Positions 308 to 16,158 of a stretch of 31,293 bases of DNA are shown here, one piece after another (positions within the stretch are counted from its first letter, which is position 1; each line of letters opens with the position of its first letter). A program made the position numbers and the translations under genes. The notes under the pieces are model-generated. The model was given only the letters and a program-made list of their open reading frames with translations, did not search any database and was not told where the DNA came from. Location: the IMG/VR virus record IMGVR_UViG_3300043435_000351, positions 1-31,293 of that record; one strand, 5' to 3'. This DNA comes from a virus.

Positions 308-315
308 TATATTTG
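308..315 (+). promoter_or_regulatory. Host-type promoter -7 box (TATATTTG)
   Basis: TATATTTG fits the Bacteroidota -7 consensus TAnnTTTG. No clean TTG -33 box sits 17-20 bases upstream. It lies just after the stop codon of the upstream gene, and a structured leader (318-404) starts 2 bases downstream. Confidence 0.6.
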
Positions 316-317
316 CT

Positions 318-404
318 TATCAATAGTTGCGTTATTGATATAATAAAATTTAACATAATTCAAGCCTTAGTAAGAACGCAACTCCGAAAGGGTTTGAATT
401 TTTT
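318..404 (+). ncRNA. Structured leader or sRNA with loop-loop complementarity, copy 1
   Basis: Hairpin 1 is a perfect 8-bp stem (TATCAATA 318-325, TATTGATA 333-340) with a 7-base loop GTTGCGT (326-332). Hairpin 2 is an 11-bp stem with two G-U pairs (357-367 with 390-400) followed by a T run (399-404), so it looks like an intrinsic terminator. Its loop contains ACGCAAC (376-382), the exact complement of the whole hairpin 1 loop. The two loops can form a 7-bp kissing interaction. The same plan recurs at 2126-2228 with different sequence. It could be an attenuating leader for the GIY-YIG gene at 410 or a short terminated RNA. I know of no named RNA family that matches. Confidence 0.6.
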
Positions 405-409
405 GCATT

Positions 410-1186
410 ATGATAGGAATATATAAAATAACGAATCCAAATAATAAAGTTTATATTGGGCAAAGTGTAAATATTAAAGAAAGATTAAAAAAATATAAAA
501 AAATACAATGCAATACACAAATAAAAATTTTTAATTCTTTAAATAAATATGGAGTAGAAAATCATACTTTTGAAGTTATTGAAGAATGTAGTATTGAATT
601 ACTTAATGAACGTGAAAGATATTGGCAAGATTATTATAATGTTTTAGGAAATGGTTTAAATTGCATTTTAACTAAAACAAATAATAAAAGTGGATATCTT
701 TCTAAAGAAGTTAAAAACAAAATAAGTAAAAGTAATTTAGGAAAAAAACATACTGAAAATACTATTTTAAAAATTAAAGAAATTCAAAATAATAGAAATA
801 TAGAATGGATTGAAAATAATAAAAAAGCATGTAAAAATAATGTGTTTTCTAAAAAAGCAAAAATAAATTCTTTAAAATATCTTATAGGGAATAAACATAA
901 TTTAGGGAAAAAACATACAGAAGAAAGTAAACTTAAAATGTCTTTAGCTAAAAAAGGTAAAAAATCTAATAGAATTAATTTTAAATTTAGTGAAGAAAGT
1001 AAACTTAAAATATCTTTATCAAAAAAAAATATAAAAATTGGAGGCAAATTAGTTTTAAATATTTATACAGGAATTTATTATAATTCTTTAAATGAAGCTT
1101 CTTTTTATAATTGCATTTGTCCTAAACAGGCTTCAAGAAAATTAAATGGAACAAGAAAAAATAATACTAATTTAATTTATGTTTAA
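410..1186 (+). CDS. Free-standing GIY-YIG homing endonuclease with NUMOD modules
   Basis: This 258-residue protein starts with the GIY-YIG nuclease core: GIY at residues 3-5 and YIG at 15-17, followed by the basic helix KERLKKYKK. The middle carries repeated NUMOD3-type DNA-binding motifs (variants of GKKHTEESKLKMS near residues 110, 165 and 195). The C-terminus (from about residue 210, KLVLNIYTGIYYNSLNEAS) looks like a NUMOD1-type helix-turn-helix. Such enzymes cut a cognate allele and spread their own gene. No intron or intein boundaries are visible, so it appears free-standing between two early genes. It is even more AT-rich and Lys/Asn-rich than its neighbours, which fits horizontal arrival. 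The start codon lies only 6 bases after the leader's T run. Confidence 0.9.
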   Translation: MIGIYKITNPNNKVYIGQSVNIKERLKKYKKIQCNTQIKIFNSLNKYGVENHTFEVIEECSIELLNERERYWQDYYNVLGNGLNCILTKTNNKSGYLSKEVKNKISKSNLGKKHTENTILKIKEIQNNRNIEWIENNKKACKNNVFSKKAKINSLKYLIGNKHNLGKKHTEESKLKMSLAKKGKKSNRINFKFSEESKLKISLSKKNIKIGGKLVLNIYTGIYYNSLNEASFYNCICPKQASRKLNGTRKNNTNLIYV

Positions 1187-1204
1187 ATTAAAAGAAAGTC
1201 AAGT

Positions 1205-1235
1205 TTGGCTATATCGTTTTAATTTTGTAAATTTG
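1205..1235 (+). promoter_or_regulatory. Host-type promoter for the recombination/replication operon
   Basis: TTG (1205-1207) and TAAATTTG (1228-1235) are separated by 20 bases, close to the Bacteroidota TTG-N17-19-TAnnTTTG layout. It lies about 26 bases before the ERF start codon, with no hairpin leader. Confidence 0.6.
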
Positions 1236-1261
1236 AAAATCTTAATTAAATATCTTATCTT

Positions 1262-1756
1262 ATGAAACAAATTGCAACCGCTTTATTAAAAGCACAATCT
1301 GAAATGAGCAATCCTAAAAAACAAGCGGAAAACCCATTTTTTAAAAAAAAATACGCTGATTTAAACGCAATACGTGAAGCAGTTATACCTACGTTAAACG
1401 AAAACGGAATTAGTGTACTACAACCAATTGTACACGTTGATGGAAAAAACTTTGTAAAAACTATTTTACTTCACGAATCAGGCGAGTTAATGGAATCGCT
1501 TACTGAAATTATCTATAATAAACAAAACGACGCACAGGCACAAGGTAGCGGAATAAGCTACGCAAGACGCTACGCATTGCAATCTTTTGTTTGTGTAGGT
1601 GCAGACGACGACGATGGACAAAAAGCGGTTCAAAACAAACCAAACGCCACTAAAGAAGTAATGCAAAAAGCTAAAACTGCTGGTGCTACTATTGAACAAA
1701 TCAAAACTAAATATTCAGTTACTGCTGAATTAGAACAATATTTTATTAATCTTTAA
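1262..1756 (+). CDS. erf: ERF-family single-strand annealing recombinase
   Basis: This 164-residue protein belongs to the ERF family of phage single-strand DNA annealing proteins, which promote recombination and genome circularisation. The N-terminal half has the family pattern (KKKYADLNAIREAVIPTLNENGIS), and residues about 96-120 hold the signature GSGISYARRYALQS followed by an acidic GADDDDGQ. The length is normal for a short ERF. The C-terminal 40 residues are a short helical tail. It is the first gene after the promoter at 1205 and lies 11 bases upstream of an SSB-like small gene, a typical recombination pair. Circularisation by annealing would suit a phage with redundant ends. Confidence 0.92.
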   Translation: MKQIATALLKAQSEMSNPKKQAENPFFKKKYADLNAIREAVIPTLNENGISVLQPIVHVDGKNFVKTILLHESGELMESLTEIIYNKQNDAQAQGSGISYARRYALQSFVCVGADDDDGQKAVQNKPNATKEVMQKAKTAGATIEQIKTKYSVTAELEQYFINL

Positions 1757-1767
1757 TTTTATTTATT

Positions 1768-2055
1768 ATGGCTACAAGCTACTACGGAAGTATTGACTTC
1801 ACAAAACTATTAGAACAAGCGAAATCAGGCAACAAAGCATTTACAAAAAACGAAAATGGTAAAATCTATTTAAACGTAAGAGTTTACGTTAATGATGAGG
1901 TTGATAAGTATGGTAACTGTGCATCTTTTCAAAGCAATTTTAAAGGTGCAACAAAGGAGGATAAGTTTTACTTTGGTAATCTTAAAGAATCAACTCCTTT
2001 AGAAATACCAGTTGTAGAAGCGGACATTGTAGATGCTTCTGATTTACCTTTTTAA
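1768..2055 (+). CDS. Small protein with SSB-like acidic C-terminal tip
   Basis: This is a 95-residue protein with a strand-rich body (GKIYLNVRVYVNDEVDKYGNCASF, split here as GKIYLNVRVYVN and DEVDKYGNCASF) that could be a small OB-like fold. It ends in the acidic/hydrophobic tip VDASDLPF. That tip resembles the DDDIPF-type tail by which bacterial single-stranded-DNA-binding proteins recruit partners. It follows the ERF gene by 11 bases and precedes a strong terminator. A single-stranded-DNA-binding role is inferred from tail and context; the body is shorter than classical SSB and I cannot prove homology. Confidence 0.6.
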   Translation: MATSYYGSIDFTKLLEQAKSGNKAFTKNENGKIYLNVRVYVNDEVDKYGNCASFQSNFKGATKEDKFYFGNLKESTPLEIPVVEADIVDASDLPF

Positions 2056-2062
2056 TGTTAAA

Positions 2063-2098
2063 AAAACCGCTAAAATAAATTAGCGGTTTTCTTTTTTG
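2063..2098 (+). terminator. Intrinsic terminator after the ERF/SSB-like pair
   Basis: A perfect 11-bp stem AAAACCGCTAA / TTAGCGGTTTT (2063-2073 with 2080-2090) with loop AATAAA is followed by CTTTTTT. It separates the erf unit from the promoter at 2113. Confidence 0.88.
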
Positions 2099-2112
2099 TA
2101 TTGTTTTTTTTG

Positions 2113-2120
2113 TATATTTG
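2113..2120 (+). promoter_or_regulatory. Host-type promoter -7 box (TATATTTG)
   Basis: TATATTTG matches TAnnTTTG, directly after a terminator and a T-rich stretch. Transcription would start a few bases before the structured leader at 2126. Confidence 0.62.
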
Positions 2121-2125
2121 CATAA

Positions 2126-2228
2126 GTAATGAAGTGAGAAGCATTACAACATAACGGAAAAAATTACATAAATCCTATCAGGAAAGCACTTCTCACAATA
2201 CTGCTGACTTGATGGGATTTTACTTTTT
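2126..2228 (+). ncRNA. Structured leader or sRNA with loop-loop complementarity, copy 2
   Basis: Hairpin 1 has stem GTAATG/CATTAC (2126-2131, 2142-2147) and a 10-base loop AAGTGAGAAG. Hairpin 2 has an 11-bp stem with one G-U pair (AAATCCTATCA 2170-2180 with TGATGGGATTT 2210-2220) and is followed by the T-rich TTTTACTTTTT. Its loop contains CTTCTCAC (2189-2196), complementary over 8 bases to GTGAGAAG (2134-2141) in the first loop. This is the same architecture as 318-404, but every paired word has changed while pairing is kept. It sits between a promoter and the gene at 2268 and fills the 200-base gap there. Confidence 0.65.
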
Positions 2229-2267
2229 AACTAAATAGTTTATCGGTATCTTAAAACCGTTATTTTT

Positions 2268-2489
2268 ATGGCAAAATTTGAATTAAGATTTATTGATTGT
2301 TTTAACGAAACTGATTTTATTAAAACAGAAGTACAGAAATTACATAGTAAAGATATTATTGAAATTTATGGTAAATGTGGTTATGATATTTTTAGTGTTT
2401 ATTTAGACAAATCAACCGCTATTAAATTTGCTAAAACACTTCGTACTGAAATCAATAAGATAACAGAAAGTGAGGTAAACAATGGCTAA
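2268..2489 (+). CDS. Small hypothetical early protein
   Basis: This is a 73-residue protein with no recognised domain. It appears to alternate short strands (KFELRFIDCF, DIIEIYG, DIFSVYLD) and end in a helix (KSTAIKFAKTLRTEINKI). It is the first gene after the kissing-loop leader at 2126-2228. Its stop codon overlaps the start of the replication initiator (ATGGCTAA, 8 bases shared), so the two are probably translationally coupled. That coupling suggests a role in or beside replication, but this is only context. Confidence 0.75.
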   Translation: MAKFELRFIDCFNETDFIKTEVQKLHSKDIIEIYGKCGYDIFSVYLDKSTAIKFAKTLRTEINKITESEVNNG

Positions 2490-3159
2490 AGAGTTACCAT
2501 ATTTTAAATTTGAACCTAACCAATGGGAAAACGGAAATATACAAATGTTATCACGTGAAGATAAAGGTTTATTTATAGACTTATGTAGTATGTATTGGTC
2601 AAGACTTGGTGATGTGCCTTTAAAACTTGCTATTCAAAAATTATGCGCTGGCAATGCGACCGCATTAAATCCGCTTTGCGATGAAAAAATTATAGAGGTA
2701 ATTGAAGGTAATATTTTTATAAAATTTTTATCTGAACAACTAAACGAGTTTGACGATATTAGTAAACAAAACTCTAAAAATGCAAAAGAAGGCTGGGAAA
2801 AGCGCCGTAAACAAAAGGAAGAAAGCGAGCGCAATGCGACCGCATTAATTTCGCAATGCGAAAACGATGCCATAAGAGAAGATAAGATAAAAGAAGATAA
2901 GATAAAAGAAAGTAAACCGAGTTTAGAAACTCGCTCTCTCGCTTTTAAAGAAACTTTAAGACCGTTTATAAATAAATACGGAGTTGATATGATAAAAAAC
3001 TTTTACGGCTATTGGAGTGAACCTAATCAAACTAAAACTAAAATGCTTTTTGAAATGCAAAAGACTTGGGATACTTCAAGGCGTTTAGAAACTTGGAGTA
3101 AAAGAGAAAGTTCATTTAATAACAAACAAGAAGTTAAACATAATAATTTAGGCATATGA
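2482..3159 (+). CDS. Phage replication initiator (replisome organiser type) with internal origin
   Basis: This 225-residue protein has an N-terminal domain (LPYFKFEPNQWENGNIQMLS, then REDKGLFIDLCSMYWSR) of the DUF4373/Lin1244-like winged-helix type found in phage replisome organisers. A charged linker (about residues 100-150, with EDKIKEDKIKES) leads to a C-terminal module ending FYGYWSEPNQTKTKMLFEMQ, then KTWDTSRRLETW, a pattern common in Bacteroidota phage replication proteins. By analogy with lambda O it should bind origin repeats and recruit a helicase or loader. The gene itself holds an 18-bp repeat pair and dyads (2651-2863) plus an AT-rich tandem repeat (2878-2907). It overlaps the next gene by 4 bases. 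Confidence 0.8.
   Translation: MAKELPYFKFEPNQWENGNIQMLSREDKGLFIDLCSMYWSRLGDVPLKLAIQKLCAGNATALNPLCDEKIIEVIEGNIFIKFLSEQLNEFDDISKQNSKNAKEGWEKRRKQKEESERNATALISQCENDAIREDKIKEDKIKESKPSLETRSLAFKETLRPFINKYGVDMIKNFYGYWSEPNQTKTKMLFEMQKTWDTSRRLETWSKRESSFNNKQEVKHNNLGI
2651..2907 (+). repeat. Candidate replication origin: iteron-like repeats and AT-rich tandem repeat
   Basis: An exact 18-bp repeat (gcaatgcgaccgcattaa) occurs at 2651-2668 and 2831-2848, exactly 180 bases apart. Each copy contains the dyad AATGCG-AC-CGCATT. A second dyad, TTTCGCA-A-TGCGAAA, lies at 2849-2863. A tandem pair of the AT-rich 15-mer gaagataagataaaa follows at 2878-2907 and could be an unwinding element. These GC-rich words stand out in AT-rich sequence and lie inside the initiator gene, as in lambda O. 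Both repeats encode the peptide NATAL, so protein-level duplication is the alternative reading. Confidence 0.6.
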
Positions 3160-15563: not shown

Positions 15564-15659
15564 TTATTTACTAAAAAAATCTTTTATAAATTTACCAACT
15601 AACATATAGAATACTATAAGTATTGGTATTCCTACTAAAACTAAAACAAGTAATTTCAT
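15564..15659 (-). CDS. 31-residue single-pass membrane peptide
   Basis: MKLLVLVLVGIPILIVFYML is followed by a short basic tail (VGKFIKDFFSK). It is one hydrophobic segment of about 18 residues. Its ATG shares a base with the stop codon of the lipoprotein gene (TAATG), which is good evidence for a translated, coupled gene despite its size. It could act with the lipoprotein at the envelope, for example in superinfection exclusion, but this is inference. Confidence 0.6.
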   Translation of the reverse strand: MKLLVLVLVGIPILIVFYMLVGKFIKDFFSK

Positions 15660-16072
15660 TATTTTAAATTTATAATTGCACCTTGATTACCTAAAGTAGT
15701 AGTTGGTAATTTACCATTCCAACGATTAATTTTATTATATTCTAAAATCGTAGGAGTAATAGATTTGTTTAGCATTTCATTTGCTTTAGCTTGACTTTCT
15801 GCATTCATAATTCTTGCTTGTGCATCTGCTTTAGCTTGTATTATTTTAGCTTCTGCGGTTGCATTTGCTTTTTCAATTTTTGTTTTTGCATCAAGTTTAG
15901 CACTTTCGTAATTTGCTTTAGCTTGTTCAATGTCGGCTTTCTTTTCACTTTCTGCTTTTAGTAAAATAGATTTACCATCACTTTCTGCATCTAATTGGTT
16001 TTGTTGTCTTTGATAATCATTACAAGATAATAACGAAATAGACAAACCTAAAATCAATAATACTTTTTTCAT
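15659..16072 (-). CDS. Lipoprotein with coiled coil and prohibitin-like C-terminus
   Basis: I start at ATG 16072 (137 residues) because MKKVLLILGLSISLLSC is then a clean lipoprotein signal with lipobox LLSC and Cys17; an upstream in-frame ATG at 16102 would spoil it. The mature part is an Ala/Lys/Glu coiled coil (KAESEKKADIEQAKANYESA and repeats of AKAD/AEAK). The end, ITPTILEYNKINRWNGKLPT, strongly resembles the C-terminal tail of bacterial SPFH/prohibitin proteins. The gene lies antisense between tail and head operons and has its own host-type promoter. This is the arrangement of a phage lipoprotein accessory gene, possibly for superinfection exclusion. It is the minus-strand gene preceded by leader 16146-16085. 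Confidence 0.8.
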   Translation of the reverse strand: MKKVLLILGLSISLLSCNDYQRQQNQLDAESDGKSILLKAESEKKADIEQAKANYESAKLDAKTKIEKANATAEAKIIQAKADAQARIMNAESQAKANEMLNKSITPTILEYNKINRWNGKLPTTTLGNQGAIINLK

Positions 16073-16084
16073 AATAAATAGTTT

Positions 16085-16146
16085 AAAAAAAATCCCCAAC
16101 ACTCGCTACAAAATGTCAGGGATTAAATATCTTATTGTTGTAGCGA
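16085..16146 (-). ncRNA. Structured leader with loop complementarity, minus-strand copy
   Basis: On the minus strand an 11-bp stem with two wobbles (AATCCCTGACA, 16124-16114, with TGTTGGGGATT, 16101-16091) encloses the loop TTTTGTAGCGAG and is followed by a run of T's (plus-strand A's 16085-16090 and beyond). TTGTAGCGA in the loop (16111-16103) is complementary over 9 bases to TCGCTACAA (16146-16138), which starts 4 bases after the promoter box. A tenth G-U pair is possible. No convincing first hairpin encloses the upstream segment. It lies between the promoter and the lipoprotein gene. Confidence 0.58.
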
Positions 16147-16150
16147 AGTA

Positions 16151-16158
16151 CAAATATA
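16151..16158 (-). promoter_or_regulatory. Host-type promoter of the lipoprotein gene
   Basis: Plus-strand CAAATATA reads TATATTTG on the minus strand, a match to TAnnTTTG. It lies 2 bases from the ACAA box of the divergent late promoter at 16161, so the two promoters are back to back. No -33 TTG is at the usual distance. Confidence 0.6.

Follow-up and report, generated by a model that had tools for sequence, protein, structure and literature searches.

Kissing-loop leaders directly downstream of promoters in viruses of Flavobacterium-like bacteria

How might a phage build a leader RNA in which the pairing is preserved while nearly all letters are free to change? The question is raised by a 31,293-nucleotide contig (IMG/VR record IMGVR_UViG_3300043435_000351; hereafter the window, meaning this whole stretch), a relative of Flavobacterium phages whose genes include an ERF recombinase, NinG and a primosomal protein and whose DNA is similar to that of the Lillamyvirus and Muminvirus phages (hosts Flavobacterium sp. 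LMO6/LMO9). A first-pass annotation had described two copies, at 318-404 and 2126-2228, of a small hairpin followed by a longer, terminator-like one with a complementary loop (GTTGCGT with ACGCAAC in the first copy), and direct reading confirms both. The architecture stands, but the count does not: the window holds three kissing leaders, at 308-404 (+), 2113-2228 (+) and 16158-16084 (-), which we refer to as leaders 1 to 3 (Table 1), and many more copies occur across phages. Leaders of about 90 bases follow directly on many promoters of viruses of Flavobacterium-like bacteria. The element is real, because its pairing is kept while nearly all letters change, and it is apparently an undescribed control element, placed just ahead of the start codons of phage genes.

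All three leaders open with the box TATATTTG. TAnnTTTG is the flavobacterial sigma-A -7 box, which spans -12 to -5 in Flavobacterium psychrophilum (PMC9723704), and by this spacing hairpin 1 begins at about +1; over a set of 90 elements, non-redundant at 85%, the median position of its 5' end is +1.5 from the predicted start. Intergenic TATATTTG boxes number seven in the window. Three of them carry a leader, and three of the remainder have an ATG closely downstream and are ordinary flavobacterial 5' untranslated regions, the median length of which is 24 nucleotides (PMC9723704).

Could such double pairings be as frequent in shuffled AT-rich DNA, as the annotation had cautioned? A first, simple detector was far too loose, and an energy-based one took its place, which looks for a kissing word, hairpin 1 and hairpin 2 within 135 nucleotides after a box and is controlled by dinucleotide shuffles. 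The window leaders score 42.7, 39.6 and 37.2, with no other high scores at its TAnnTTTG boxes. Across 597 TAnnTTTG boxes in 8 phage sequences, a score of at least 36 was observed 12 times versus 0.0 times per shuffled replicate (5 replicates), and across 949 boxes in 67 fetched loci (nearly all phage contigs), a score of at least 32 was observed 58 times versus once after shuffling, so that shuffles do not yield leaders. Box-free stretches of the same genomes matched in 1 of 7087 cases (score at least 36), and that one is a direct-repeat artefact. A general feature of host promoters was considered and rejected, since cellular Bacteroidota DNA (672 kb, with 1049 boxes) reached a score of at least 32 once, versus three times in shuffles.

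For a non-circular test, loci were picked solely by protein homology and their upstream regions then scored for a kissing leader. Upstream of the 73-amino-acid protein encoded behind leader 2, a leader was present in 57 of 64 non-redundant regions, and in 57 of the 58 that have a box, as compared to 0.6% in shuffles of the same DNA; relatives of the lipoprotein-like product behind leader 3 were preceded by one in eight cases out of nine. Relatives of the GIY-YIG endonuclease behind leader 1 had a leader in 3 of 21 cases, and the association with this enzyme is thus sporadic. A homing-endonuclease-linked mobile element, an idea that came from leaders ahead of GIY-YIG or NUMOD4 HNH genes in the window, FCV-1 and tooticki, was rejected on this count and because most leaders precede other genes.

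A covariance model was trained on 11 relatives of leader 2, without any term for the kissing helix, and searched against 45 sources. A kissing word is present in 23 of its 24 non-training matches at E<0.05, and the remaining one lies antisense to a true element. This kiss-blind model, although made from copy-2-like sequences, also recovers leader 1 of the window (E=0.022), which indicates that the copies share one architecture. Its matches in cellular genomes were weak, 1 in 101 and 1 in 396 (497 in all), and neither has a kiss, for which reason a presence in cellular genomes was rejected. In a first alignment of 11 relatives, chosen partly by the detector, six of eight kissing pairs show two-sided changes, and one-sided changes number 0. 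In a second alignment, of 31 protein-selected relatives placed on the model without kissing information, pairing in the kissing helix reaches 98.0%. Two-sided changes number 49 and one-sided changes 0, hence there are no G-U wobbles, among relatives that share ancestry and in alignment cells that are not independent events. Again six of eight pairs show two-sided changes, with repeated replacement at columns 30/87 (CG, AU, UA, GC) and 31/86, whereas slid controls of the whole structure are only 36-42% paired. The covariation that the annotation had read from two copies is borne out in these relatives, and the outcome it had named as adverse, relatives that keep the sequence and lose the pairing, is the opposite of what is found. 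The hairpin stems do contain G-U wobbles (column 71/114 in hairpin 2: UG 12, UA 8, GC 5), which argues for selection on RNA rather than on DNA. The kissing helix is, on this evidence, under strong selection at the RNA level.

What is held constant and what is free? Over the 90 elements, the kissing helix is Watson-Crick and 6-10 base pairs (bp) long, and it is made from 66 different words, which in a subset of 49 elements are 56% G+C in phages of about 30% G+C. A spacer with a median length of 18 nucleotides (50% A in the subset of 49) leads to hairpin 2, which usually consists of two stems with an internal loop and has its 3' end at a median of +90. After the last G/C of its stem, positions 2-4 are T at frequencies of 0.89-0.92 and A at 0.04-0.09, and a T-run of at least four follows hairpin 2 in 84 of 90 elements. 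This run is fixed in position to the stem (standard deviation 3.3 nucleotides), not to the ATG (14.6 nucleotides), and in that respect resembles an intrinsic terminator. An open reading frame (ORF) starts with its ATG 3-52 nucleotides past hairpin 2 in 47 of 49 elements. The loop AAGTGAGAAG is found on hairpin 1 in one class and on hairpin 2 in another (L163), with its partner swapped, which suggests that the contact itself matters and not which hairpin holds which strand. Around the inner stem of hairpin 2, eight of the 90 elements have AGTA..GAA (0.1 expected), the pair of strands by which the bulged-G (sarcin-ricin) motif is known.

The window leaders vary on this theme. In leader 1, AGTA (369-372) and GAA (386-388) flank a short, imperfect inner stem in a bulged-G-like manner, and the kissing pairing reaches nine nucleotides (AGTTGCGTT at 325-333 with AACGCAACT at 375-383); in leader 2, the inner stem of hairpin 2 is AGC(A) 2185-2188 / (T)GCT 2202-2205. 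The T-rich stretch that the annotation had placed after hairpin 2 is present in leader 1 but interrupted in leader 2. The further copy that it had suspected at 16085-16146 corresponds to leader 3, with kissing words, hairpin 2 and U-tract on the minus strand but no proper hairpin 1. Because the stem of this hairpin has at best 3 bp, leader 3 in its predicted fold resembles an H-type pseudoknot more closely than a loop-loop kiss.

Elements are present in the Flavobacterium phages Lillamyvirus, Muminvirus, Elemovirus (a podovirus), Ficleduovirus FCV-1 and phage 11b, and others were read by eye in Olleya phage Harreka_1 (GTGGTGG/CCACCAC) and Tenacibaculum phage JQ (GCATCCTAC/GTAGGATGC behind TATATTAG). 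Phocaeicola phage PV4-TP1 and Bacteroides LoVEphage have an element adjoining a repressor gene, with a 7-nucleotide loop facing another, a 15-bp hairpin 2 and a U-tract. The untranslated early leader of these two phages extends over 0.7 kb; past the kissing leader and ahead of the first early ORF, it includes a 19-bp imperfect hairpin that follows a box (L007:4599-4720, L082:20599-20720). Many IMG/VR contigs also contain elements, up to five in one of them (L025, 9.5 kb). Universality across Bacteroidota phages was rejected, as the Nonlabens P12024S and Flavobacterium 6H phages gave no convincing element. The products encoded downstream, most of them named by reading their sequence, comprise replication proteins, DNA methyltransferase-like, helicase-like and small unknown proteins, HNH and GIY-YIG endonucleases, and lipoproteins. 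Free-standing homing endonuclease genes (GIY-YIG, NUMOD4-HNH) with a leader lie at window 410-1186, L006:40457, L003:11689 and L025:2260. In four of five homing-endonuclease leaders, hairpin 2 ends only 3-10 nucleotides from the ATG, which suggests tight repression.

How might the kiss act on the gene behind it? We infer the direction of regulation and its trigger from the observed architecture, and we lean, with some reserve, towards attenuation, that is, a leader acting in cis in which the kissing interaction governs an intrinsic terminator. The leaders form a family fused to host-type TAnnTTTG promoters, in which hairpin 1 starts at the predicted 5' end of the transcript and an A-rich spacer leads to a two-part hairpin 2. 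We envision hairpin 2 as an intrinsic terminator, located at roughly +90 to +100. The kissing helix may form before the terminator stem completes and may compete with or reshape that stem. The kiss would then set how many transcripts terminate and how many read through into the gene, and transcripts stopping at the U-tract would never reach it. Since sequence is free and shape is kept, a small ligand is unlikely as the trigger, and a shape-reading factor or plain folding kinetics would be the more likely candidate. For the same reason, one factor recognising the kissed shape, or RNA polymerase carrying it, could switch all leaders of one phage together, and such an antitermination regulon might comprise replication protein, methyltransferase, homing endonuclease and lipoprotein genes. 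We hold it possible but doubtful that the same kissed shape, free of sequence, sits on many promoters as a regulon by which one phage or host factor, or RNA polymerase, switches all operons from termination to read-through; if true, the leaders would represent antitermination signals of a class for which a tertiary contact is the sole defining feature.

Among the options raised by the annotation (attenuators, small RNAs or processing-resistant leaders), the stem-anchored U-tract favours the first. The leaders lie between a promoter and the start codon of a gene, as attenuators do, and a G+C-rich stem base is followed immediately by a U-tract, with exceptions. Those exceptions are among the points that weigh against attenuation: a good U-tract is missing in L050, L053, L056 and L068, and that of leader 2 is interrupted. 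A generic terminator scan calls leader 3 only, leaders 1 and 2 being passed over because their loops exceed its size limit. No mutually exclusive antiterminator stem was seen by eye, the kiss and the full hairpin 2 could in principle coexist, and no trans-acting factor was identified. A geometric estimate puts the straight coaxial stack at about 98 Å versus about 116 Å for the fully stretched spacer, which is a suggestion only that the base of hairpin 2 would resist closing while the loops are kissed. This geometry no more than hints at tension, since kissing complexes are bent and longer stacks do not come with longer spacers (rho -0.40); a spacer tuned in length to the helix is not supported.

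Alternatively, the leader may protect the 5' end of its messenger RNA, with hairpin 1 at +1 locked on hairpin 2 as a shield against 5'-end-dependent decay, the A/U-rich initiation region staying free and the U-tract being incidental or aiding ribosome binding. Hairpin 1 does begin at the predicted start (median +1.5), the leaders far exceed the 24-nucleotide median of flavobacterial 5' untranslated regions (PMC9723704), and, as the best argument for protection, L050, L053 and L068 retain the kiss without the U-tract. We nevertheless consider it rather unlikely, as the T enrichment is specific and follows the position of the stem, not that of the start codon, and a hairpin 2 as close to the ATG as in four of five endonuclease leaders would hinder initiation. 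Improbable, in our view, is a scenario whereby the terminated small RNA of about 95 nucleotides is the main product and acts in trans on leaders with the same word or on a host factor, in superinfection immunity or autoregulation as P4/c4 RNAs do. Such an RNA would be in line with transcription starting at +1 from the promoter and with an end near +90 that resembles a terminator, and the hypervariable, element-specific words (66 distinct in 90) resemble antisense self-recognition loops. However, an ORF lies within about 50 nucleotides of nearly all elements, often too tightly for another promoter, the words are already satisfied inside one molecule, and neutral drift with compensation also predicts that they differ. 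A protein-binding platform, on which a phage or host protein would recognise the kissed shape or the bulged-G AGUA/GAA motif and repress or activate translation, could account for the excess of AGTA..GAA (8 of 90 versus 0.1), but it is very improbable given that the motif is missing from most elements, the start codon is not occluded in most members and no conserved protein partner was identified. A DNA-level element (an origin, a recombination or module-exchange site) or chance hairpins can practically be dismissed: leader 2 does sit at the replication module, but the strict promoter-ORF orientation, G-U pairs, covariation, unrelated downstream genes and shuffle results all speak otherwise, and a DNA-level origin was rejected on the unrelated genes and the G-U pairs.

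Table 1. Features of the three window leaders and their surroundings (aa, amino acids; nt, nucleotides)
Feature	Position	Strand	Details and basis
Leader 1 -7 promoter box	308..315	+	TATATTTG; sequence; flavobacterial sigma-A -7 box (PMC9723704)
Leader 1 hairpin 1	318..340	+	stem TATCAATA/TATTGATA, loop GTTGCGT; 5' end near predicted transcription start
Leader 1 hairpin 2	357..400	+	outer stem 357-368/389-400; loop word ACGCAAC 376-382 pairs with hairpin 1
Leader 1 U-tract after hairpin 2	399..404	+	GIY-YIG ORF begins at 410
Free-standing GIY-YIG/NUMOD3 homing endonuclease, 258 aa, behind leader 1	410..1186	+	protein annotation
Leader 2 -7 promoter box	2113..2120	+	TATATTTG; sequence, detector
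Leader 2 hairpin 1	2126..2147	+	GTAATG / AAGTGAGAAG / CATTAC; kissing word GTGAGAAG 2134-2141
Leader 2 hairpin 2	2170..2220	+	outer stem 2170-2180/2210-2220; loop word CTTCTCAC 2189-2196 partners hairpin 1
Leader 2 U-tract after hairpin 2, interrupted	2218..2228	+	TTTTACTTTTT; sequence
Hairpin H3, outside the kissing fold	2244..2259	+	CGGT / ATCTTAAA / ACCG; 8 nt ahead of ATG of 73-aa ORF
Conserved 73-aa protein (MAKFELRF) behind leader 2	2268..2489	+	followed by primosomal protein 2482-3159
Leader 3 -7 promoter box	16151..16158	-	TATATTTG; sequence, detector
Leader 3 5'-proximal word	16138..16145	-	CGCTACAA; hairpin 1 weak or absent
Leader 3 hairpin 2	16091..16124	-	13-bp stem; loop word TTGTAGCG 16111-16104; then U-tract 16090-16084
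Lipoprotein-like gene, 137 aa, behind leader 3	15659..16072	-	weak Rz-spanin similarity
AGTA/GAA motif sites beside window 369-372/386-388	L006:40354, L008:33621, L009:3628, L042:3878, L048:1099, L061:438, L130, L185

Leader 2 is accompanied by further features. Hairpin H3 is a second conserved RNA element and looks like a translational operator: the letters of its 4-bp stem vary while the pairing is kept (CGGT/ACCG, AGGT/ACCT, CCGT/ACGG, CAGT/ACTG), and its loop is conserved as A[TG]CTTAAA. It occurs at the same place in L158-L237, and a hairpin like it is retained in L058/L204, where the kissing leader was not found. The 73-amino-acid protein is a widespread small phage protein with 114 relatives in one IMG/VR scan, adjoining replication genes, and its window copy gave no Pfam match. 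Just ahead of the promoter at 2113, a strong ordinary intrinsic terminator (AAAACCGCTAAAATAAATTAGCGGTTTTCTTTTTTG, 2063-2096) closes the upstream gene and is predicted to insulate leader 2.

Has such an RNA been described? The annotation knew of no fitting RNA family, and in agreement with this, none of the Rfam 15 families matched any part of a leader, with cut-offs of E<=1 in the window and E<=0.5 in 12 loci; a hit to RF02914 at L025:2813 is under the gathering score and not at a leader. In PMC8092290, consulted for phage transcripts, the RNA-seq is of F. columnare cultured without phage. No description of this RNA was found in the open literature, subscription papers and preprints lying outside that search. 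Sequence-based and nested-structure searches largely miss it, because its conserved part is a pseudoknotted loop-loop contact. Bacteroidota hosts do without Shine-Dalgarno signals and have unusual promoters, and the leaders are a candidate for post-initiation gene control in their phages, the first as far as open papers show. The class is testable in named laboratory phage-host pairs (Lillamyvirus, Muminvirus; Flavobacterium sp. LMO9/LMO6), and its more than 60 different intramolecular kissing loops form a natural library usable for RNA engineering.

How do the leaders compare with known systems? HK022 put and EAR-type leaders consist of two hairpins that follow an early phage promoter and act in cis, and in this general placement, on which alone we compare them, our leaders are alike. 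However, put has a conserved sequence and targets distant terminators, whereas here hairpin 2 is itself terminator-like, the two loops kiss each other, and several operons are each supplied with a separate copy. In plasmid ColE1, copy number is controlled by an intermolecular kiss between RNA I and RNA II, the shape of which is recognised by Rom/Rop regardless of sequence; the leaders likewise have fully paired 7-nucleotide loops of freely changing sequence, but both loops belong to one transcript. P4 CI RNA and P1 c4 RNA immunity and pIP501-type attenuation employ a separate RNA complementary to its target. They share with the leaders a complementarity in a phage or plasmid leader that is tied, presumably in our case, to premature termination, whereas here the complementary words lie within the same leader and not in a separate RNA. 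In the guanidine-IV (mepA) riboswitch, the ligand drives a kissing loop that makes it harder for the terminator stem to complete, and read-through is the result (PMC11611296). The leaders resemble it in architecture only, in that a hairpin further upstream kisses the terminator region; unlike this riboswitch, which has a conserved sequence and binds guanidinium, they are phage-borne and have nearly no conserved positions outside the promoter across classes, which makes a small-molecule pocket unlikely. With 66 different kissing words in 90 elements and no Rfam match, they are not guanidine-IV aptamers. As a short cis-regulatory RNA type with compensatory changes, the leaders are comparable to structured motifs in Rfam 15, although they match none of its families. 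The leaders make up a new RNA family, and an unusual one, since a tertiary contact and a position define it rather than sequence; mechanistically, it would add a new variant to the known forms of leader attenuation.

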